Source: Bacteroidales bacterium (lineage in GTDB: Bacteria > Bacteroidota > Bacteroidia > Bacteroidales > Prolixibacteraceae). From it: 64,000 nucleotides of DNA. The notes beneath the pieces are model-generated. The model was given only the letters and a program-made list of their open reading frames with translations, did no database searches and had not been told where the DNA came from. Numbering within the stretch: the first letter of the stretch is position 1; every line of letters begins with the position of its first letter. The DNA is taken from contig JAAYDJ010000007.1 of NCBI GenBank assembly GCA_012729335.1, positions 310,001 through 374,000 of the forward strand, given 5' to 3'. Below, one piece after another: positions 7,302 through 52,975 of this stretch. The position numbers were made by a program, and so were the translations under genes.

Positions 7302-7757
7302 TTATTCAATTATAATTGTTTTATCCACCTCATATTCCAGTCCGGCCGAAGTCCAGGTGATTTTCACAATATAGCGTCCCGGAACCAGGTTGCTTTTGTC
7401 GATGTTCATCTGGTCGCCATCCTTTCTCAATGGGAAAGAGAGGTCCTTGTTATGGTCTGACGGGCGAAAAAAGAGTACCTCCCCCTGCTCGACAGCGGTG
7501 CGCATTTCCGGAGGGAAAACAAGGACTACCGAATCGGTGGTGGTTTCTATGTTAATCAGGGAGGCATAGGCTGCAGAACGCTGATTCTTTTGCATGGTCG
7601 AGGTGTGGTCCACGCCTTTCTCGTAGTAATCACGGTGAACCATGTTCACATCCTGATGAAAGGCAAATACCACAAATGTGATGACCGCTGCAAGGAAAAG
7701 CAGCAGGAAGATCAACACTCCCGTACCCCAGTTAAATTTTACTTTCATTTTCACCAT
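7302..7757 (-). CDS. FixH family protein
   Basis: Single N-terminal TM, short periplasmic domain, located between ccoG and the TauE/SafE gene. Confidence 0.85.
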   Translation of the reverse strand: MVKMKVKFNWGTGVLIFLLLFLAAVITFVVFAFHQDVNMVHRDYYEKGVDHTSTMQKNQRSAAYASLINIETTTDSVVLVFPPEMRTAVEQGEVLFFRPSDHNKDLSFPLRKDGDQMNIDKSNLVPGRYIVKITWTSAGLEYEVDKTIIIE

Positions 7758-7871: not shown

Positions 7872-9248
7872 TTACTTCTCGGGTCCCACAAAGGTCGATT
7901 CCGTGGTTTCGATAAGTTTCTCACCGTGGTATATGGCAAATCTGATGCTGTTTTTTGTCCCGGTGACCTGGTTGCGGGGGAGGAGGAGGACAAAAGAGGA
8001 TTCATACATTCCCTGGTCGGCGACCGATATTTTGTTTCCTGCCATGCGAATCTCTCCTCCCTCAGGGGAGATCAGTCTGAGTTGCAGGTCCATCACCTCG
8101 TGGGTTTTATTGACGATTTTGATATTATAGAGGTTGGAAAGGGTTCCGTCTTCATTTTCCTGATAGAGGAGTCCGGGTGTACGCAAGATGGTGGTTTCGG
8201 CCTCAGGGCGGGTGAGCAGGGTATAGAGGAAGAAGGAGAAGAGGAGGATGAGCACCACGGAATAGGCGCGGTTGCGCCAGTTCCACATAGAAGTATGCCC
8301 TTTTTCGATTCCCTCGGCCGACACATACCGGATCAGGCCGGCCGGCTTGCCGGTTTTTCCCATTACCCTGTCGCACTCGTCGATACAGGCGGTACAGTTG
8401 ATGCATTCGAGCTGGGTGCCGTTGCGGATATCGATGGCGGTGGGGCATACGGCCAGGCAGAGCCGGCAGTCGATACAATCCCCGGTGGCCCTGGGGCCGC
8501 GGGGTTCTCCCCGTTTGTAGTCGTAGGAAACCACCATGCTCCGCCGGTCCAGCAGAACCCCCTGCATACGGCCATAGGGGCATACCATGGTGCAGAGCTG
8601 CTCGCGGAAATAGGAGTACATCCAGTAGAAAAAGAGGGATACCGCCATCATGACCAGGAACTCCGTCAGATGTTTCCCCACGGGATCGGAAATGATGGCG
8701 AAAAGCCTTTCATACCCGATGAACCACATCAGGAAGACATTGGTCATCAGGAAGGCCACCAGTAGGAATAACCCGTGCTTGAGGCTCTTTTTGAAGATTT
8801 TCCGGGTGGTCCAGGGGCTCTGGTCCAGTTTCCGGCGTGCCTGGTAGTCTCCCTCCACAAGGAATTCAATTTTGCGGAAGACCATTTCGAGGAAAAGGGT
8901 TTGGGGACAGGCCCATCCGCACCAGATGCGGCCAAAGGTAACTGTGAAGACGATGATAAACAGGACAAAGGAGAGCATCAGCAGGGCCAGGATAAAAGTG
9001 TCCTGGGCCCAGAAAATCGCCCCGAAGATGATGAATTTCCGGTCGGGAATATCGAGCAGAATCAGGGGATAGCCGTTAATTTTGATAAATGGGGCTGTTA
9101 CGAAAAAGGCCAGAAGGAGATAGGCCACGAACATCCTGCGGGTATGCCATTTCCCCGAGGGTTTCTTGGCATACACCCATTTGCTGTGTCCCTCCTCGTC
9201 GATATTGATGGGACGGTCGCGGAACGAATATTCTTTCTGATTAGTCAC
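7872..9248 (-). CDS. ccoG: Cytochrome c oxidase accessory protein CcoG (FixG/RdxA)
   Basis: GRIWCGWACPQTLFLEMVFRKIE, CPYGRMQGVLLDRRS, CIDCRLCLAVCPTAIDIRNGTQLECINCTACIDECD; C-terminal Ig-like domain. Confidence 0.95.
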   Translation of the reverse strand: MTNQKEYSFRDRPINIDEEGHSKWVYAKKPSGKWHTRRMFVAYLLLAFFVTAPFIKINGYPLILLDIPDRKFIIFGAIFWAQDTFILALLMLSFVLFIIVFTVTFGRIWCGWACPQTLFLEMVFRKIEFLVEGDYQARRKLDQSPWTTRKIFKKSLKHGLFLLVAFLMTNVFLMWFIGYERLFAIISDPVGKHLTEFLVMMAVSLFFYWMYSYFREQLCTMVCPYGRMQGVLLDRRSMVVSYDYKRGEPRGPRATGDCIDCRLCLAVCPTAIDIRNGTQLECINCTACIDECDRVMGKTGKPAGLIRYVSAEGIEKGHTSMWNWRNRAYSVVLILLFSFFLYTLLTRPEAETTILRTPGLLYQENEDGTLSNLYNIKIVNKTHEVMDLQLRLISPEGGEIRMAGNKISVADQGMYESSFVLLLPRNQVTGTKNSIRFAIYHGEKLIETTESTFVGPEK

Positions 9249-9250
9249 TT

Positions 9251-9465
9251 ATGTTAATATTGAGTCTGGAATCAGGAGTCTGGAATCAGGAGTCTGGAAT
9301 CTTGAATGTGGGAATCTGGAATCTTAAGTCTTGAATCTTAAGTCTTAAGTGAACTCCGAACTTCGGAATCTGGAATCTTAAGTCTTGAATCTTAAGTCTT
9401 AAGTGAACTCCGAACTCCGGGATCCGGAATCTTGAATGTGGGAATCTCGAGTCTCATGATCTCTC
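9251..9465. repeat. Degenerate ~7-bp-period repeat with a 54-bp tandem duplication
   Basis: Direct copies of GGAATCTGGAATCTTAAGTCTTGAATCTTAAGTCTTAAGTGAACTCCGAACTtC begin at ~9311 and ~9365; further GGAGTCTGGAATCA units precede them. Confidence 0.9.
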
Positions 9466-9471
9466 CGTCTT

Positions 9472-10068
9472 CTATTCGCACGGTTGGCCTTGTGGGGCTT
9501 TGGCATTGGCCGGGTTGGAGCCTTTGAGGCTAATGATATAACTGGAGACCTGGCTGATTTTCTCATCATTGATTTGTCCTTTGAAGGCGGTCATCCCCTT
9601 GGTGGGGAAACCGTTTTTGATGATGTAGAAAACCTCGTCGAAGGAGCAGCCGTGGATCCAGGCGTTGTCGGTCAGGTTGGGGCCTATGGCGTTGCCTTCG
9701 CCTGCGTTGCCATGGCAGGCGGCGCAGTTCATGGCGGCATACACCTCCCTGCCCGCATTCAGGGAAGCCTCATCGGTAAGCAGGGAAAATACGCCTTCCG
9801 GAGTGGCCGAGGCGTATTTTACCTGTGCCTTTTCAACCGCCCGGGCATACTCCTCATCCTGGTTGGGACCCACTTTCAGCCAGTAATAATAGGCCCCATA
9901 GAGGATGGAGATCCCGATGGTGAGGTAGAAGATGGCCATAATCCATCCTGGCGGCGGATTATCGAGCTCCTTGATCCCGTCATACTCATGTTCTTCGATA
10001 CCCATGTCATTTTTGTCACCCTGGACATCATCATAAAGTTCAGAATCATTGTTATTTGAAGTCATCAT
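9472..10068 (-). CDS. ccoP: cbb3-type cytochrome c oxidase subunit III (CcoP-like, mono-heme)
   Basis: N-terminal TM (GWIMAIFYLTIGISILYGAYYYW) and one heme site CAACHG. Confidence 0.9.
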   Translation of the reverse strand: MMTSNNNDSELYDDVQGDKNDMGIEEHEYDGIKELDNPPPGWIMAIFYLTIGISILYGAYYYWLKVGPNQDEEYARAVEKAQVKYASATPEGVFSLLTDEASLNAGREVYAAMNCAACHGNAGEGNAIGPNLTDNAWIHGCSFDEVFYIIKNGFPTKGMTAFKGQINDEKISQVSSYIISLKGSNPANAKAPQGQPCE

Positions 10069-10270
10069 ATTCAATGTTTTGTTTATTATCAGAATCAGGT
10101 GTTTCCCGGTCATCGAGGATGGCGTTTTTGATCTGGTCCATTTCGTCGCGGGGCCGGAGAAGGGTTCTCACCAGGAAGAGGATGAACATCGCGAAGAAGA
10201 TAAGAAGCCCTATGACATACCAGGTGCCGATGCCCTCGATGGTTTCCAGGAGACTACTGACGATCTTCAT
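10052..10270 (-). CDS. Small membrane protein, CcoQ/FixQ-like
   Basis: 72 aa, one TM (YVIGLLIFFAMFILFLVRTL), between ccoNO and ccoP, overlapping the ccoP start. Confidence 0.75.
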   Translation of the reverse strand: MKIVSSLLETIEGIGTWYVIGLLIFFAMFILFLVRTLLRPRDEMDQIKNAILDDRETPDSDNKQNIEYDDFK

Positions 10271-12713
10271 CGCTTGCTGTATTCAGTGTTTGTAGAATAT
10301 AGGCTGCCAACTGGAGGATCTGCGCTTCGGGGAGCTGGCTTTTGTAGGCGATCATGCCTTTTGCGGGACTTCCCTCGCGGATGGAATGGGCGACGGCTTC
10401 AGGGGAGCCTCCGTGGATCCATTCCCTGTCGGTCAGGTCGGGGAAAGCCGGGGGAATTCCTTTTCCTTCGGGGCCGTGGCACACCGCACATATCTTCATG
10501 TAGTTCTCTTTGCCGGCGTCCAGGTCAGCCTGCGCTACCGGAAGGACCACGGGAGGCAGCTCTTTCTCTGCGGAATCTGCAGCCGCCGGCTGGGAGATGT
10601 CCCTGCCCAGTTTATGGAGGTAGGCGATCACGGCGATCATCTCTCTGTCGGCCGGGATGTCGATGCCGGAGGCTTTCAGGTCGGCGGCGATAATTTCGGC
10701 TTGTTCCCGCAGGTCATCCACCGCCTGTTGGTCATATCCTTCGGGATAGGGGACTCCCAGTTTCTGCATGACCCTGATCTTGGACGGGATGGTTTTCGCT
10801 TTGATGGTATTGGCCCCCAGCCAGGGATAACGCGGCATGATGGAGTTCTCGTTCATTTTCTGGGGATCCATGAAGTGGTTGAAATGCCATGCCGCATTTT
10901 TGTACATCGGCCCGCTCATGTTTCCGGCCCGGGCCAGGTCAGGTCCAGTACGGCGCGACCCCCACTGGTAAGGATGGTCATAGACAAACTCGCCGATCTT
11001 GGAATATTCACCATAGCGGTCGGTCTCCCATCGGAAGGGTCTTACCACCTGGGAGTGACAGGTGTAGCATCCCTCACGGATATAAATGTCGCGCCCCTCG
11101 AGTTCCAGCGGGGTGTAAGGGGTGACGGCCTCGATGGTGGGGATGTTCGATTTGATGAAGACCATGGGGATGATCTCGACGGCGCCGCCGATGGCCAGCA
11201 CGATGAAGGCCACTATGGAGAACTGGATGCCTTTGCGTTCGAGCCAGCGGTGCACGGTTTCCTTTTCCAGGTCGAGGGGTCCCAACCTGGGAAGGGCGGG
11301 AGCCTCGGCAGCCTCCTCATTGGGGCATTTTCCCGCCTGCATGGTCTTGGCCAGGTTGATGATCAGCAGGACAAAACCGGTGAGGAAGAGGGTGCCACCT
11401 ACGATCCGGGCCACGTACATGGGGATGATATGGGTGAGGATCTCCATGAAATTGGGATAGGCCAGGAATCCTTCGGGGGTGTATTCCCGCCACATGAGCC
11501 ATTGGGTGACGGCTGCCCAGTAGAGAGGGATGGCGTAAATAAGGATGCCCAGGGTGGAGATCCAGAAGTGTGCGTTGGCCAGTTTCTCCGACCAGAGTTT
11601 GGTGCGGAAGATCACAGGGACCATCCAGTAGAGCATTCCGAAGATGATACCGCCGTTCCATCCCATTCCGGCGATATGGACATGGGCGATGGTCCAGTCG
11701 GTGAAGTGGGTGATGGCGTTGACATTTTTGAGGGACATCATGGGGCCTTCGAAGGTGGCCATCCCGTATGCGGTGAGGCCGACCACGAAGAATTTAAGGG
11801 CGGCGCTGTCGCGTACCCGGTCCCATGCACCGCGCAGGGTGAGGAAACCGTTGATCATCCCTCCCCAGGAAGGGGCGATGAGCATGATCGAGAAGGTGGT
11901 TCCCAGGGCCTGTGCCCATCCAGGCAATGCCTGGTAAAGGAGATGGTGGGGGCCTGCCCACATATAGAGGAAAATCAACGACCAGAAATGGATGATACTC
12001 AGTTTATAGGAGTAGATGGGCCGGTTCACGGCCTTGGGTAGGTAGTAATACATCAGTCCCAGGATGGGGGTGGTCAGGAAAAAGGCGACGGCGTTATGGC
12101 CATACCACCACTGGACCACGGCGTCCTGGGCCCCGGCATATACTGAGTAGCTTTTAAACAGGGAAACCGGAAGCTCAAAGGAGTTGACAATGTGGAGGAT
12201 GGCAATGCCGATGAAGGTGGCCAGGTACCACCATATGGCGGCATAGATGTGTTTCACCCGGCGCACCATGATGGTGCCGATCATGTTCCAGCCAAAAGTC
12301 ACCCACACGATGGCAATCAGAATGTCGATGGGCCATTCGAGTTCGGCGTACTCCTTCGAAGTGGTGAATCCCAGCACCAGGGTGATGGCCGCCAAAAGGA
12401 TGATGAGCTGCCACCCCCAGAAGTTGATGGCACTCAGCATGTCGTTGTACATCCTGGTTTTCAGCAGCTTCTGCATGGAGTAGTAGACTCCTGCAAAGAT
12501 GCCGTTCCCCACAAATGCAAAGATGATGGCATTCGTATGCACGGGTCGCAGCCTTCCAAAGGTGACCAGGTCCAGGCCCAGGTTGACCCCCGGGAACGCC
12601 AGTTCCAGGGCGATCCAGAGACCCACGATGACCGCGACCATCCCCCAGATCAATGTGGCCCAGATAAACTGCTTGACAATCTTATTGTCGTAATAGAATT
12701 TTTGAAGTTCCAT
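10254..12713 (-). CDS. ccoNO: cbb3-type cytochrome c oxidase subunit I/II fusion (CcoN-CcoO) with extra C-terminal cytochrome c domain
   Basis: CcoN motifs (RPVHTNAIIFAFVGNG, WWYGHNAVAFFLT, HVHIAGMGWNGG), CcoO motif (GCYTCHSQVVRPFRWETDRYGE), then a second heme site CAVCHGPEGKG near the C-terminus. Confidence 0.95.
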   Translation of the reverse strand: MELQKFYYDNKIVKQFIWATLIWGMVAVIVGLWIALELAFPGVNLGLDLVTFGRLRPVHTNAIIFAFVGNGIFAGVYYSMQKLLKTRMYNDMLSAINFWGWQLIILLAAITLVLGFTTSKEYAELEWPIDILIAIVWVTFGWNMIGTIMVRRVKHIYAAIWWYLATFIGIAILHIVNSFELPVSLFKSYSVYAGAQDAVVQWWYGHNAVAFFLTTPILGLMYYYLPKAVNRPIYSYKLSIIHFWSLIFLYMWAGPHHLLYQALPGWAQALGTTFSIMLIAPSWGGMINGFLTLRGAWDRVRDSAALKFFVVGLTAYGMATFEGPMMSLKNVNAITHFTDWTIAHVHIAGMGWNGGIIFGMLYWMVPVIFRTKLWSEKLANAHFWISTLGILIYAIPLYWAAVTQWLMWREYTPEGFLAYPNFMEILTHIIPMYVARIVGGTLFLTGFVLLIINLAKTMQAGKCPNEEAAEAPALPRLGPLDLEKETVHRWLERKGIQFSIVAFIVLAIGGAVEIIPMVFIKSNIPTIEAVTPYTPLELEGRDIYIREGCYTCHSQVVRPFRWETDRYGEYSKIGEFVYDHPYQWGSRRTGPDLARAGNMSGPMYKNAAWHFNHFMDPQKMNENSIMPRYPWLGANTIKAKTIPSKIRVMQKLGVPYPEGYDQQAVDDLREQAEIIAADLKASGIDIPADREMIAVIAYLHKLGRDISQPAAADSAEKELPPVVLPVAQADLDAGKENYMKICAVCHGPEGKGIPPAFPDLTDREWIHGGSPEAVAHSIREGSPAKGMIAYKSQLPEAQILQLAAYILQTLNTASDEDRQ

Positions 12714-12723
12714 GTATTGTGTT

Positions 12724-12933
12724 TTATTTATGTCTCTCAGTCTCTTCGTCTCTCAGTCTCTCAGTCTCTTTGTTCCCATTTTCCTCCTCCACCGGTTCGT
12801 CGTCAAAAAGCATCCGGTAGGGGGGTGTTTCGTTGTCGTCGAACTGACCGGTTCTGACTGCCCAGATGAATGCGGCCAGAAAGATGAGGGCCGCCAGAAG
12901 GCTCGCTCCGATCAGCAGGTAGAAAATATTCAT
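12724..12933 (-). CDS. ccoS: cbb3-type oxidase assembly protein CcoS
   Basis: MNIFYLLIGASLLAALIFLAAFIWAVRTGQFDDNETPPYRMLFDD. Confidence 0.9.
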   Translation of the reverse strand: MNIFYLLIGASLLAALIFLAAFIWAVRTGQFDDNETPPYRMLFDDEPVEEENGNKETERLRDEETERHK

Positions 12934-12981: not shown

Positions 12982-13863
12982 TTATTCTTTTCCGGCTTTA
13001 TAAATTTTAAGAATCTGGAAGATGACATAGCCGATGACCAGCCAGACGCCGCCGACCACTCCCAGGTATGCCAGGATCAGCCACCACTGGGTGCGGTCGT
13101 TGGTGGACCAGAGGACCCTGTCGGCGAATAGGTTTTCAGTATCGGCGGGGGCGGCAATTTTCAGGCGGTTCATGACCAGAGGGTCACAACTGAAATCCTC
13201 CCCCAGGGTCACTCTCAGGTCGACGAGGCCTTCCCAGTCTCCCTTGAACTCTTCCGGAAATTTGAATTCTGCATGTCCGGAGCCATTGGTTTTGGCCTGG
13301 CCGATAGCCAGGCTGCCGAAGGTACGTTTGGCGCTGATGAAGAGGTCGGCATGGGGCAGGGGCATCCACTCGCCTGAAGCGTTGAGGGTTTGTGCCGACA
13401 GGGTGAGCACTTTCGCCGTTTCATCAGCGGCCCCCTGCAGACGGGCTTTCACAGGCTCCTCTTTTACCAGGAGCCCTTCATTGGCCGGGTCAAAACTCTT
13501 CATGAAGCTGACGATTCTCCATCGTTGTTCTTCCGTAAGGGTCGTTTCAAAGGCCGGCATGGCCACCCGCCCCGTGGTGATCTTGTAAAAGAGGGCCCCT
13601 TCGCTGTTCTGCAGCATCTGTTCCGAGGTGACATCGGGCGGAGGGGGCACCAGCGGCAGGGCGTTGTTCTTCCCCGGATCGCCGTGACACGATTTGCAAT
13701 GGGTATTGTAAAGTTCCCGGCCGGCCTTTACATTCTCATTGTTGAAGGCCGAGGGATTTTTCAGCGCATCCTGATCGGCGGGGACTTCCCACACCTGGCT
13801 GAAGCCCTGTAAACCCGGCAGCAGAAAAAGCACCGCTGCGGAGAGGAAAAAGAACTTTCTCAT
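12982..13863 (-). CDS. c-type cytochrome with C-terminal membrane anchor
   Basis: Signal peptide, CKSCHGD heme site, middle Ig/FixH-like domain, C-terminal TM (WWLILAYLGVVGGVWLVIGYVIFQIL). Confidence 0.85.
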   Translation of the reverse strand: MRKFFFLSAAVLFLLPGLQGFSQVWEVPADQDALKNPSAFNNENVKAGRELYNTHCKSCHGDPGKNNALPLVPPPPDVTSEQMLQNSEGALFYKITTGRVAMPAFETTLTEEQRWRIVSFMKSFDPANEGLLVKEEPVKARLQGAADETAKVLTLSAQTLNASGEWMPLPHADLFISAKRTFGSLAIGQAKTNGSGHAEFKFPEEFKGDWEGLVDLRVTLGEDFSCDPLVMNRLKIAAPADTENLFADRVLWSTNDRTQWWLILAYLGVVGGVWLVIGYVIFQILKIYKAGKE

Positions 13864-13866
13864 GGT

Positions 13867-15249
13867 CTATTGGTTTTCGGGTTTTTCGGTCAGGTATTTC
13901 TTGTCGATTCCCTGTTGGTGGGCATACTCCCAGATGCTGATGACCGGGAAGAGTTTAGCCAGAAGGGTGATGATGATCAGGGCTCCCACGAATCCAAAGA
14001 GGAGGATGACGATTTCGTTGCTGGTGGGGGCGTAGTGTTTGAAATAGTCGGGCACGTTCTGCACGGGCAGATGGGGGTGTTCCATGGTGGGTATGACGAT
14101 GACATAGCGCTTGAACCAGGAGGCCACCAGAACCAGGAAGGAGATGAGAAACATGGGGAAAGGTCTCCGGAAGTACTTAAAGAGCAAAAGGAAGATAGGC
14201 AGGATAAGCCCGGCGATCTGTACGAACCAGAACATGCGGGAGTAGCCTCCTGCAAAGAGTTCCCGCAGGTGAATGCCTTCGTGGAGCCGCATCTTATATC
14301 CGGGGACCAGGAATTCGTTGATGTTGAAATAGAGGTAAACCAGACAGACGAACACGAGCAGTTTACCCATCATATCGAAATGGTGGTGGGTGAAGTAGTT
14401 TTTGAGGCGGTAGCGCAGCCGGTACACGAACATGACCATTACCACGGCGGCGGTACCGGCGACAAAGGCTCCTGAAACGAAGTAGGGGCCGAAGATGGTG
14501 GTGTCCCAGCCGGCACGGAGTGTGGAGGCAAAGAGCCAGGAGGTAACGGTATGGATGGAGAGCCCCACGGGGATGATGAGAATCATCAGGATGCGCATGG
14601 CATGGGTCACCAGCCGGTATTGTTCCTCGTTGCCCTTCCAGCCGAGGGCGAGTACTGTATAGATTTTTTTCTGTATCTCCGGAACGCCGGTCAGGCGGTC
14701 GCGCAGGAGGGCGAGGTCGGGGATCAGCGGAAGGTAAAAGAGGAGCACCGAGATGACCAGGTAAGTGGTGACCACGGTGAGGTCCCACAGGATGGGGGAG
14801 GCGAAGCGACCGTGGAGGAATACATTCTGGAGCCGGTCGGGGCGCCCCATGTCCATGACGATGATGAGACCTGCCATGGCCACGGCGGCAATGGCCACCT
14901 GTTCGGCCACTCGCGAGATGGGCTTCGACCATTCGATTTTCAGCAAGTGCAGCGTGGAACTGATCAGGAACCCAATCAGACTCACCGCCACAAAGAAGAC
15001 AAAGTTGGCGATATAGGCTCCCCAGGAGACATAATCGCGCATGCCGGTGACCCCCAGCCCGCGCTGGATCTGGATGATGAAGCCCCAGACCCCAACTATA
15101 GCGAACATCACCAGAATGAAGAGCCAAAAGCGGCTCATTTCGTCGCGGTGGGTGATGGAACGGGTGAGGTCCCTGAAAATCCTGTCGAGCGATTTCCTCG
15201 ACTCTTCAGGTGATTTTATCTCATTCATTTTGTTGGTTTTTCTAGACAT
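13867..15249 (-). CDS. NrfD/PsrC family integral membrane subunit
   Basis: About ten hydrophobic segments, e.g. DYVSWGAYIANFVFFVAVSLIGFLISS; flanked by FeS and cytochrome c genes. Confidence 0.88.
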   Translation of the reverse strand: MSRKTNKMNEIKSPEESRKSLDRIFRDLTRSITHRDEMSRFWLFILVMFAIVGVWGFIIQIQRGLGVTGMRDYVSWGAYIANFVFFVAVSLIGFLISSTLHLLKIEWSKPISRVAEQVAIAAVAMAGLIIVMDMGRPDRLQNVFLHGRFASPILWDLTVVTTYLVISVLLFYLPLIPDLALLRDRLTGVPEIQKKIYTVLALGWKGNEEQYRLVTHAMRILMILIIPVGLSIHTVTSWLFASTLRAGWDTTIFGPYFVSGAFVAGTAAVVMVMFVYRLRYRLKNYFTHHHFDMMGKLLVFVCLVYLYFNINEFLVPGYKMRLHEGIHLRELFAGGYSRMFWFVQIAGLILPIFLLLFKYFRRPFPMFLISFLVLVASWFKRYVIVIPTMEHPHLPVQNVPDYFKHYAPTSNEIVILLFGFVGALIIITLLAKLFPVISIWEYAHQQGIDKKYLTEKPENQ

Positions 15250-15310
15250 TCGTTAATGCAATGGTTTTCAGTTGCATAAAGTAGGTTCACTGAAGAAGGT
15301 GCTTCGTGCG

Positions 15311-16261
15311 TTAACCCTGGTGTCCCTTTTCGATCAGCTCCCCTTCAAAAGGGAAGGTCCTGTTTTTGGGCGGGAGATAGTATACCCGGGGTTTGGTGCC
15401 GAGTTCTTCCATAAGGGTATAGGCCCCATTGTCGCGGATCAGTTTGGAAAAACTGACGGTTTCTTTGGTGGTGCCGTTGGTGACGGCATCCTCGTTGCGG
15501 TCGCCGAACCAGTAAACGCTGTTGGGGCATGCCGACACGCAGGAGGGGAGTTTTCCGTCGCGCAAGAGGTCTGCACTGAAGAGGCACTTGGAGATGGTTC
15601 CCTTTTTCTGGGGTACATTGGCCTCGATGTTGTAGGTGACGCCTTCGTACTTTTCCGCATCACGGGGTTCAAACCAGTTGAAGACCCGGGCTGAATAGGG
15701 ACATGCCGCGATACAGAACCGGCAGCCGATGCACCGTTCGTTGTCGATCAGCACAATGCCGTCGGCCCGCTTGAAGGTGGCGTTGACAGGGCACACCTTG
15801 GTGCAGGGAGGATTGTCGCAATGCATACAGGGCTTGGGCATATAATAGGGGGCGGTATGTTCCGCGTCCTGCATTTGCAACACATTGATGTGATGCTGCT
15901 CGGGCCGGAGCTGGTGGTGGTTCTGGCAGGCCGCCATGCACTGACGGGCATTCCGGCATTTTGACAGGTCAATGACCATCACCCAGCTTTTACCCTCCAT
16001 TCCCAGACGCCCCCGCTTCTGATTGTCGGTGAGCGAAGGCATCTCCGCCGGCGTGAGCTGTGAGGCATCCACCTCCACCAGCGTACCCCCGGGGGTCAGA
16101 AGTCTGATCTTACCTTCAGGGGAGACCGAAGAGACTTTGCTGCAGGAGGTAAGTACCCCTGAAGAAACACCCAGTCCGGCTACCCCCAGGGTCACCCCCA
16201 GCGATTTCAGAAAGCTCCTTCTGGTATTGTAATTTTGCTCCATAAGAGTGGTTTTTGACAA
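15311..16261 (-). CDS. Tat-secreted 4Fe-4S ferredoxin-type protein (NrfC/PsrB/DmsB-like)
   Basis: RRSFLKSLGVTLGVAGLG Tat-like signal; Cys motifs CRNARQCMAACQ, CMHCDNPPCTKVCP, CIGCRFCIAACP, CVSACP. Probable start is the second Met at 16243. Confidence 0.92.
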   Translation of the reverse strand: MSKTTLMEQNYNTRRSFLKSLGVTLGVAGLGVSSGVLTSCSKVSSVSPEGKIRLLTPGGTLVEVDASQLTPAEMPSLTDNQKRGRLGMEGKSWVMVIDLSKCRNARQCMAACQNHHQLRPEQHHINVLQMQDAEHTAPYYMPKPCMHCDNPPCTKVCPVNATFKRADGIVLIDNERCIGCRFCIAACPYSARVFNWFEPRDAEKYEGVTYNIEANVPQKKGTISKCLFSADLLRDGKLPSCVSACPNSVYWFGDRNEDAVTNGTTKETVSFSKLIRDNGAYTLMEELGTKPRVYYLPPKNRTFPFEGELIEKGHQG

Positions 16262-16438
16262 CGAATTTAGTGATTCGGAGGGAAATATATCAAAACATGT
16301 TGCACAATATCCAATTAGAATCTTTCCTGAATAAGTGGGATTTCATCCCGATCTCTGCCCTTGGGGTTGGTTATAAGCTGGTTTGCCTCAAGGTGCTCTG
16401 AAAGGTGTAGGGATGTAAAATGGAATGAGTTTAAACAA

Positions 16439-16948
16439 ATGGAAAGAATGGTTGTTAGAGTTCAAAATATTAAAAAACTTTCAGCTATGTTTTGGACAGG
16501 TATTGCATTGGGGATTGTGCTCACCGTTCTGAGTCTGTTTTTAGTACTGCCCAGGGTGATGTTTACAGAAAGCGTGAGCAGGCATGGTTTTGAGGAAACC
16601 GGAGCGCTCATTGAAAAAAAGGCTGCTGAGATGAAATGGGGGATTCCCCACCAGTACGACCTTCAGGCTACACTGAATTCAAAAGGATTTGAGGTGCAGC
16701 CCGTCAGGGTCTATTCGCTATGTAAACCCGATGTGGCCTATCTGATCCTCTCTTCGGAGAAGTCCAGGATAGCTTCAGCGCTGATGCCTTGCAGGATTTC
16801 GGTGTATACCAAGCCCGACGGGAAAACGTATGTATCCCGGCTTAACGCCACGCTCCTCTCGCGTTTCATGGGTAAGGGGATCCGACAGGCGATGAAGCAG
16901 GCAGCCTCGGAGAACGAACTGATCCTGAGGGGAATCGTGGAATCCTGA
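16439..16948 (+). CDS. DUF302-domain membrane protein
   Basis: N-terminal TM followed by DUF302-like HQYDLQATLNSKGFEVQPVRVYSLCKPDVAYLIL...MPCRISVYTKPDGKTYVSRLN. Confidence 0.75.
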   Translation: MERMVVRVQNIKKLSAMFWTGIALGIVLTVLSLFLVLPRVMFTESVSRHGFEETGALIEKKAAEMKWGIPHQYDLQATLNSKGFEVQPVRVYSLCKPDVAYLILSSEKSRIASALMPCRISVYTKPDGKTYVSRLNATLLSRFMGKGIRQAMKQAASENELILRGIVES

Positions 16949-17130
16949 ATCCGGAATCTTGAGTCTTAAGTCTTAAGTCTTAAGTCTTGAGTCTGGAATC
17001 TTGAATCTTGAATATTGGAATCGGGAATCCTGAATATTGAGTCTTAAGTCTTGAATCTTAAGTCTTAAGTGAACTTCGAACTCCGAAATCCGAAATCTTG
17101 CGTCTGGAGTCTGGAATCCTGAATGGTTAA
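16946..17130. repeat. Second copy of the ~7-bp-period repeat family
   Basis: Parses as GTCTGGA ATCTTGA ATCTTGA ATATTGGA ATCGGGA ATCCTGA ATATTGA GTCTTAA GTCTTGA ATCTTAA GTCTTAA GTGAACT; shares CTTAAGTCTTGAATCTTAAGTCTTAAGTGAACT with 9251-9465. Confidence 0.88.
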
Positions 17131-52879: not shown

Positions 52880-52975
52880 TCCTCCTTCCAGACTCAAGAT
52901 TCCAATATTCAAGATTCCAGACTTCGGATTCCTCCTTCCAGACTCAAGATTCCAGACTCCCGATTCCCGATCATT
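52880..52975. repeat. Third copy of the GGAATCTTGA-type repeat family (inverted orientation)
   Basis: TTCCAGACTCAAGATTCCAATATTCAAGATTCCAGACTTCGGATTCCTCCTTCCAGACTCAAGATTCCAGACTCCCGATTCCCGA; reverse complement matches units at 9.3 and 17.0 kb. Confidence 0.85.

Follow-up and report, generated by a model that had tools for sequence, protein, structure and literature searches.

The 64,000-nt window analyzed here (assembly GCA_012729335.1, contig JAAYDJ010000007.1, positions 310,001 to 374,000, from a Bacteroidales bacterium of the Prolixibacteraceae) carries three minus-strand genes, hereafter the trio, which encode an iron-sulfur (FeS) protein, an NrfD-type integral membrane protein, and a membrane-anchored monoheme cytochrome c (CytC). 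Gene calls and Pfam matches confirm the arrangement proposed in a first-pass annotation of the sequence, with the trio directly upstream of, and on the same strand as, ccoS-ccoNO-ccoQ-ccoP-ccoG-fixH, the genes of a cbb3 oxidase and its accessory proteins (Table 1). The genes are closely spaced, with gaps of 61 nt between FeS and NrfD, 3 nt between NrfD and CytC, 48 nt between CytC and ccoS, and 10 nt between ccoS and ccoNO. Consensus scans found a promoter-like site 5' of the FeS gene and no minus-strand terminator-like site between the trio and the cco genes; such scans are weak evidence, and the case for an operon rests on gene order and spacing. The synteny that the annotation suggested checking is conserved. 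Since most of the related loci examined show the same FeS-NrfD-CytC order, and dozens also the linkage to cco genes, we exclude a chance arrangement.

Table 1 Features of the trio and the adjoining cco genes, in window coordinates
Feature	Position	Strand	Description and evidence
FeS subunit	15311..16261	-	316 aa; Tat signal TRRSFLK; ferredoxin-like, NrfC/DsrO/ActB2 type
Four Cys groups of FeS subunit	15527..15958	-	I: C102, A105, C108, C112; II: four Cys; III: four Cys; IV: C226, S229, C241, C245
NrfD/ActC-like integral membrane subunit, predicted to bind quinol	13867..15249	-	PF03916, 2.4e-33
Putative quinol-site residues D133 (= ActC His139) to D156 (= ActC Asp169)	14782..14853	-	Both invariant in 76 homologues
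CytC	12982..13863	-	Signal peptide, monoheme cytochrome c domain, beta domain, C-terminal transmembrane anchor; Cytochrome_CBB3, 3.8e-14
Heme c motif C56-K-S-C59-H60	13684..13698	-	Distal ligand Met102 at 13558-13560
ccoS	12724..12933	-	TIGR00847 above cut-off
ccoNO fusion with extra C-terminal cytochrome c domain	10254..12713	-	COX1, FixO, Cytochrome_CBB3; NF011053, 1165 bits
ccoQ-like small membrane protein	10052..10270	-	Position and conservation in related cco operons; no Pfam match
ccoP, short monoheme form	9472..10113	-	One heme motif only; FixP_N, 6.4e-13, and Cytochrome_CBB3
ccoG	7872..9248	-	TIGR02745 above cut-off
fixH	7302..7757	-	PF05751, 1.7e-18

The closest solved relatives of the NrfD protein are the C subunits of alternative complex III (ACIII; 6lod, 6btm, and 6f0k; E about 1e-54). 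Its true start is probably the second Met, near position 15228, as M8 is invariant in the homologues. We mapped its residues by alignment to ActC of R. marinus, with the roles of the ActC residues taken from PMC5928083. In addition to the two putative quinol-site acids, many of the charged residues in the two putative half-channels are kept (Arg119, Glu122, Asp191, His247, and Glu450; Tyr270, Glu326, and Arg395), while Glu394 is changed to Lys and Tyr323 to Asn. With a single NrfD and partly conserved half-channels, the trio might pump protons, work as a redox loop, or make no contribution to energy coupling.

The FeS protein matches Pfam Fer4_11 (1.3e-20) and aligns to PsrB (2vpw_B) and to the C-terminal domain of ActB (6f0k). 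Its listed start codon is TTG, and the first ATG, at 16243, is the likely start. The first-pass annotation had described it as a Tat-type four-cluster ferredoxin. The Tat signal and the four Cys groups bear this out, but the canonical set of 16 cysteines does not, as only 14 of the 16 cluster ligands are kept and the second Cys is replaced by Ala in group I and by Ser in group IV. The loss is family-wide: the group I position is non-Cys in 75 of 75 homologues, and the group IV position is Ser in 74 of 75. Intermediates occur within a related clade, where L160 and L161 retain every Cys and L145-L158 have lost the one in group I; the oxidase-linked family has lost both. By the usual assignment of ligands in CISM proteins, the two distal clusters are built from groups I and IV, and both are therefore likely to be three-Cys clusters in the FeS subunit.

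The heme ligands and neighboring residues of CytC (C56, C59, H60, M102, and P103) are kept in at least 97% of 69 homologues. A MAFFT alignment in which fusion proteins were combined with NrfD and CytC sequences put the cytochromes out of place, with the same sign in another alignment, and only an alignment with the heme motif in register was used. The heme domain aligns to ActE (6f0k_E, 2e-8) and to c552/c6 alike, and the beta domain and the C-terminal anchor are unlike ActE. Natural in-frame fusions of NrfD and CytC, 761-762 aa long, were found at four loci (L089:2519-4804, L090:454-2739, L095:9998-12286, and L102:5045-7330). In an AlphaFold2 model of the L095 fusion (pLDDT 78, pTM 0.69), the NrfD half adopts the ActC fold, with target TM-scores of 0.79-0.84 and ActC ranking above ActF. 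The structure matches of the cytochrome half are ActE and c552/c6, and a C-terminal helix is present in the CytC part. The placement of the two halves in this model is not confident and was not used.

The host genome (3.66 Mb in 40 contigs) is 99.74% complete, and neither bc1 nor a full ACIII, the two enzymes whose absence the first-pass annotation had proposed to check, was found in it. The trio's NrfD is its sole NrfD match (PF03916, a model that a divergent ActF could escape). Cytochrome b (PF00033) was not found in the host, with 8 of 14 control genomes positive, and neither was a molybdopterin oxidoreductase (PF00384, which may miss a cofactor-less ActB1). A query that gives ActC-like matches in most Bacteroidia genomes gave none here. 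The model TIGR04519, for a Tat-type Mo-like protein, had no match even in the controls and was not used as evidence of absence. Besides one bd oxidase and the cbb3 CcoNO, the genome encodes a second COX1-type protein, of 747 aa (G000:C35:38497-39798), that, judged by length and score only, is probably a quinol-dependent nitric oxide reductase. With one NrfD, no cytochrome b, and no molybdopterin enzyme in the genome, the trio is the only visible quinol:cytochrome c oxidoreductase that could link the quinone pool to the cbb3 oxidase.

The loci nearest to the window belong to metagenome-assembled genomes of Prolixibacteraceae and to Draconibacterium and Maribellus strains, and the trio is conserved across Prolixibacteraceae, Marinifilaceae, Marinilabiliaceae, and other Bacteroidia. 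Among 70 trios that had an oxidase in reach or at least 6.5 kb of sequence downstream, 64 had a same-strand heme-copper oxidase within about 4.5 kb (44 cbb3 and 20 aa3), a fraction biased by the ranking of the loci by similarity to the window. At three loci (L046, L052, and L072), automatic aa3 labels had arisen from partial or broken CcoNO genes and were changed to cbb3 by hand. The aa3 operon linked to the trio has the order SCO1-COX1-COX3-COX4-COX2-CyoE. On a maximum-likelihood tree, the oxidase label changed between cbb3 and aa3 at least twice, and a cbb3-linked Saccharicrinis/Labilibacter clade is nested inside aa3-linked trios (supports 98/99, 95/82, and 99/94). At L071, L073, and L081, the trio is a free-standing three-gene unit. 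Of the proposal that the trio is a conduit dedicated to the cbb3 oxidase, the linkage to cbb3 therefore stands, but the exclusivity does not, as relatives precede aa3 operons or stand alone.

In a sister clade from other Bacteroidia (L145-L162), FeS and NrfD are followed by a heme-less anchor protein of ~300 aa and a separate monoheme cytochrome of ~140 aa. By eye, we assigned a NorC-like/NorB-like pair a few kb downstream in L154 and a NarK-like transporter upstream in L152. A linkage of this second clade to nitrous oxide reductase was suspected and not confirmed.

We then compared gene content across 147 genomes of the order, with oxidase class assigned by score and length. An NrfD/ActC protein was present in 46 of 48 genomes with an A/C-type (O2-reducing heme-copper) oxidase, compared to 8 of 99 without one. 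In 23 of the 48 oxidase-bearing genomes, the trio was present with no ActC-type match and no strong cytochrome b. In the two nearest genera, read by eye, aa3 and ActC occurred together in 31 of 31 genomes, and the five genomes without aa3 (G000, G721, G651, G655, and G654) had the trio and cbb3 and no ActC. Both systems can also share a locus. In a neighbor genome (L163/L164), trio-cbb3 is divergent from aa3-ActABCDEF, and in L165 the trio immediately precedes an ACIII operon. In L163-L165, ActC has a gene with six CxxCH motifs beside it; the Act genes other than ActC were named by order, length, and heme count. One genus of the family (G702-G705) encodes an A-type COX1 of ~683 aa and no NrfD protein.

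Elsewhere at the locus, the CcoNO open reading frame is 819 aa long and has a cytochrome c domain past FixO; several relatives share this form, and that of Marinifilaceae is ~710 aa. A gene for a DUF302 protein (16361-16948, plus strand) is divergent from and adjoins the trio. Degenerate 7/14-nt repeat arrays (TCTTGAG / GAATCTTGAGTCTT and variants) occupy several intergenic places (9262-9433, 16954-17070, and 52936-52967).

Among the closest known systems is ACIII (ActABCDE(F) of Rhodothermus and Flavobacterium). The trio shares with this complex an ActC-like NrfD and an ActB2-like FeS domain, has a monoheme cytochrome whose heme domain resembles ActE and c552/c6 alike, and likewise lies beside an oxidase operon, with the same presumed reaction (PMC5928083). 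However, the trio operon has no multiheme gene (ActA) and neither ActF nor ActD; genome-wide, PF03916 revealed no ActF, although a divergent one could be missed, and ActD was not searched separately. Its FeS protein is a separate 316-aa single-domain protein without the Mo-like ActB1 domain, and PF00384, which a cofactor-less ActB1 may escape, has no match in the genome. The cysteine losses also differ, affecting groups I and IV in the trio, whereas ActB2 is without the second Cys of group III, and in the putative quinol site His139 is replaced by Asp and Asp253 by Leu. In ACIII, the [3Fe-4S] cluster of ActB2 is the membrane-proximal one and lies about 11 Å from heme I of ActA (PMC5928083). 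As we sought ActA, ActB1, and ActF without success, we do not file the trio as a member of ACIII.

The best NCBIfam models were DsrO for the FeS protein (180.6 bits, cut-off 200) and DsrP for NrfD (128.7 bits, cut-off 350). We rejected membership in the DsrOP group, given scores below cut-off, the separation of the trio NrfD from Chlorobia-type DsrP (DsrMKJOP) on the tree, where the two are distant, and a genome without a second NrfD. In DsrO, the set of cluster cysteines is complete. A locus of cable bacteria, DsrOhPh-tetrahaem, which has been called a candidate alternative complex III, follows the same FeS-NrfD-cytochrome logic (PMC13047784). In contrast to that locus, the trio's cytochrome is monoheme and C-terminally anchored, and the trio is oxidase-linked, while no oxidase linkage was reported there (PMC13047784). 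With NrfCD/PsrBC-type modules, the trio shares an NrfD encoded next to a multi-cluster FeS protein; these modules work with or without a catalytic subunit and pass electrons to periplasmic proteins (PMC6303296). An oxidase-linked FeS-NrfD-monoheme unit is not among the systems in the available parts of a 2021 survey of NrfD proteins (PMC8076601) and a 2018 family analysis (PMC6303296). Finally, the trio holds the same metabolic position as cytochrome bc1 (Rieske-cytochrome b), between quinol and cytochrome c, but has no heme b, Q-cycle, or Rieske protein in the operon, and cytochrome b is absent from the genome.

Taken together, the trio is very likely a minimal menaquinol:cytochrome c oxidoreductase of the NrfD type that corresponds to ActB2-ActC-ActE and feeds the cbb3 oxidase encoded downstream. 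This builds on the observed gene content, conservation, genomic exclusivity, oxidase swapping, fusions, conserved heme and putative quinol-site residues, and ActC-like fold, from which we infer the direction and exact path of the electrons and the physical association of the three proteins; the partly conserved half-channels may or may not move protons. The view of the first-pass annotation that the genes encode a stripped-down ACIII-like quinol:cytochrome c oxidoreductase is thus supported by the ActC and ActE matches in sequence and fold, by genome content, and by synteny, with catalysis being the inferred part. Menaquinol would bind NrfD on the periplasmic side near D133 and D156 and be oxidized there, and the electrons would pass from NrfD into the periplasmic FeS subunit. 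From the FeS subunit, they would reach the His/Met heme of the membrane-anchored CytC, and from there the hemes of CcoP/CcoO and then O2. As the trio has no ActA, the CytC heme would have to sit near some FeS cluster.

Several observations weigh against this interpretation. Within the proteins, NrfD lacks the third quinol-site acid of ActC (Asp253), with an invariant Leu239 (76 homologues) at its position, and the two lost cysteines put the state of two FeS clusters in question. Of the 36 trio NrfD genes in the unbiased sample of the order, no more than 15 had an oxidase within 6 kb on their contig, many contigs being short. Eight genomes of the order had NrfD without such an oxidase, including some fragmentary or weak cases, and two (G202 and G313) had an oxidase without NrfD. 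The 147 genomes are not phylogenetically independent, which makes a Fisher test of the association between oxidase and NrfD optimistic. Moreover, in genera g365 and g383, cbb3 and aa3 are accompanied by ACIII and the trio is missing, and genus g379 has an A-type oxidase and no NrfD at all. The trio and ACIII therefore look interchangeable rather than obligatory.

Three other functions were considered. Foremost, the FeS-NrfD pair might work with a different terminal reductase, for example a multiheme nitrite reductase or a cytochrome c peroxidase, and merely share the cbb3 operon, as suggested by the free-standing units mentioned above, by nar-type genes beside the module in L087, and by the NorCB-like genes of L154. 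We regard this as improbable, since the trio provides the only NrfD of a genome that has cbb3 and no detectable bc1 or ACIII, and since aa3 and ACIII occur and vanish together while the trio and cbb3 stay. The distant catalytic reductase that the first-pass annotation named as a possible refutation is likewise made unlikely by the lack of a molybdopterin enzyme in the genome, although the search did not extend to multiheme partners such as NrfA. Second, the trio might run in reverse, as a Qrc-type cytochrome c:menaquinone reductase that passes electrons from a periplasmic donor to the quinone pool, with a regulatory role for the oxidase linkage. The NrfD family operates both ways (PMC6303296), and the QrcC and QrcD models match FeS and NrfD weakly, below cut-off. 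However, the genome yielded no molybdopterin formate dehydrogenase, ActC is closer in both fold and sequence than any other solved protein, and the trio is linked to two different oxidase types, which leaves little probability for this direction. Least credible is a role in the assembly or redox maturation of heme-copper oxidases, for example as a supplier of electrons for heme or copper insertion, for although the trio adjoins ccoS, ccoG, fixH, and a CopA-type ATPase, and SCO1 in aa3 operons, many relatives have cbb3 and aa3 without it, and the conserved quinol-site acids and the ActC fold point to quinol chemistry.

A minimal menaquinol:cytochrome c oxidoreductase of this type bears on how menaquinol electrons reach c-type oxidases in the many Bacteroidia without bc1 or ACIII, a route for which we found no described answer in the literature searched, subscription reviews being outside the search. 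More tentatively, and with somewhat less than an even chance in our judgment, the trio may represent a three-protein third kind of complex III, which would be the sole quinol:cytochrome c oxidoreductase in many Bacteroidia, fit either cbb3 or aa3, bind the oxidases directly via its anchored cytochrome, and possibly translocate protons through one NrfD. If true, it would be the smallest known coupling enzyme of the quinol:cytochrome c step. ACIII, with its two NrfD subunits and an FeS wire whose role is unclear, blurs the question of proton pumping by NrfD, whereas a module of three subunits with a single quinol site and a single NrfD would offer a simple object on which to test it.

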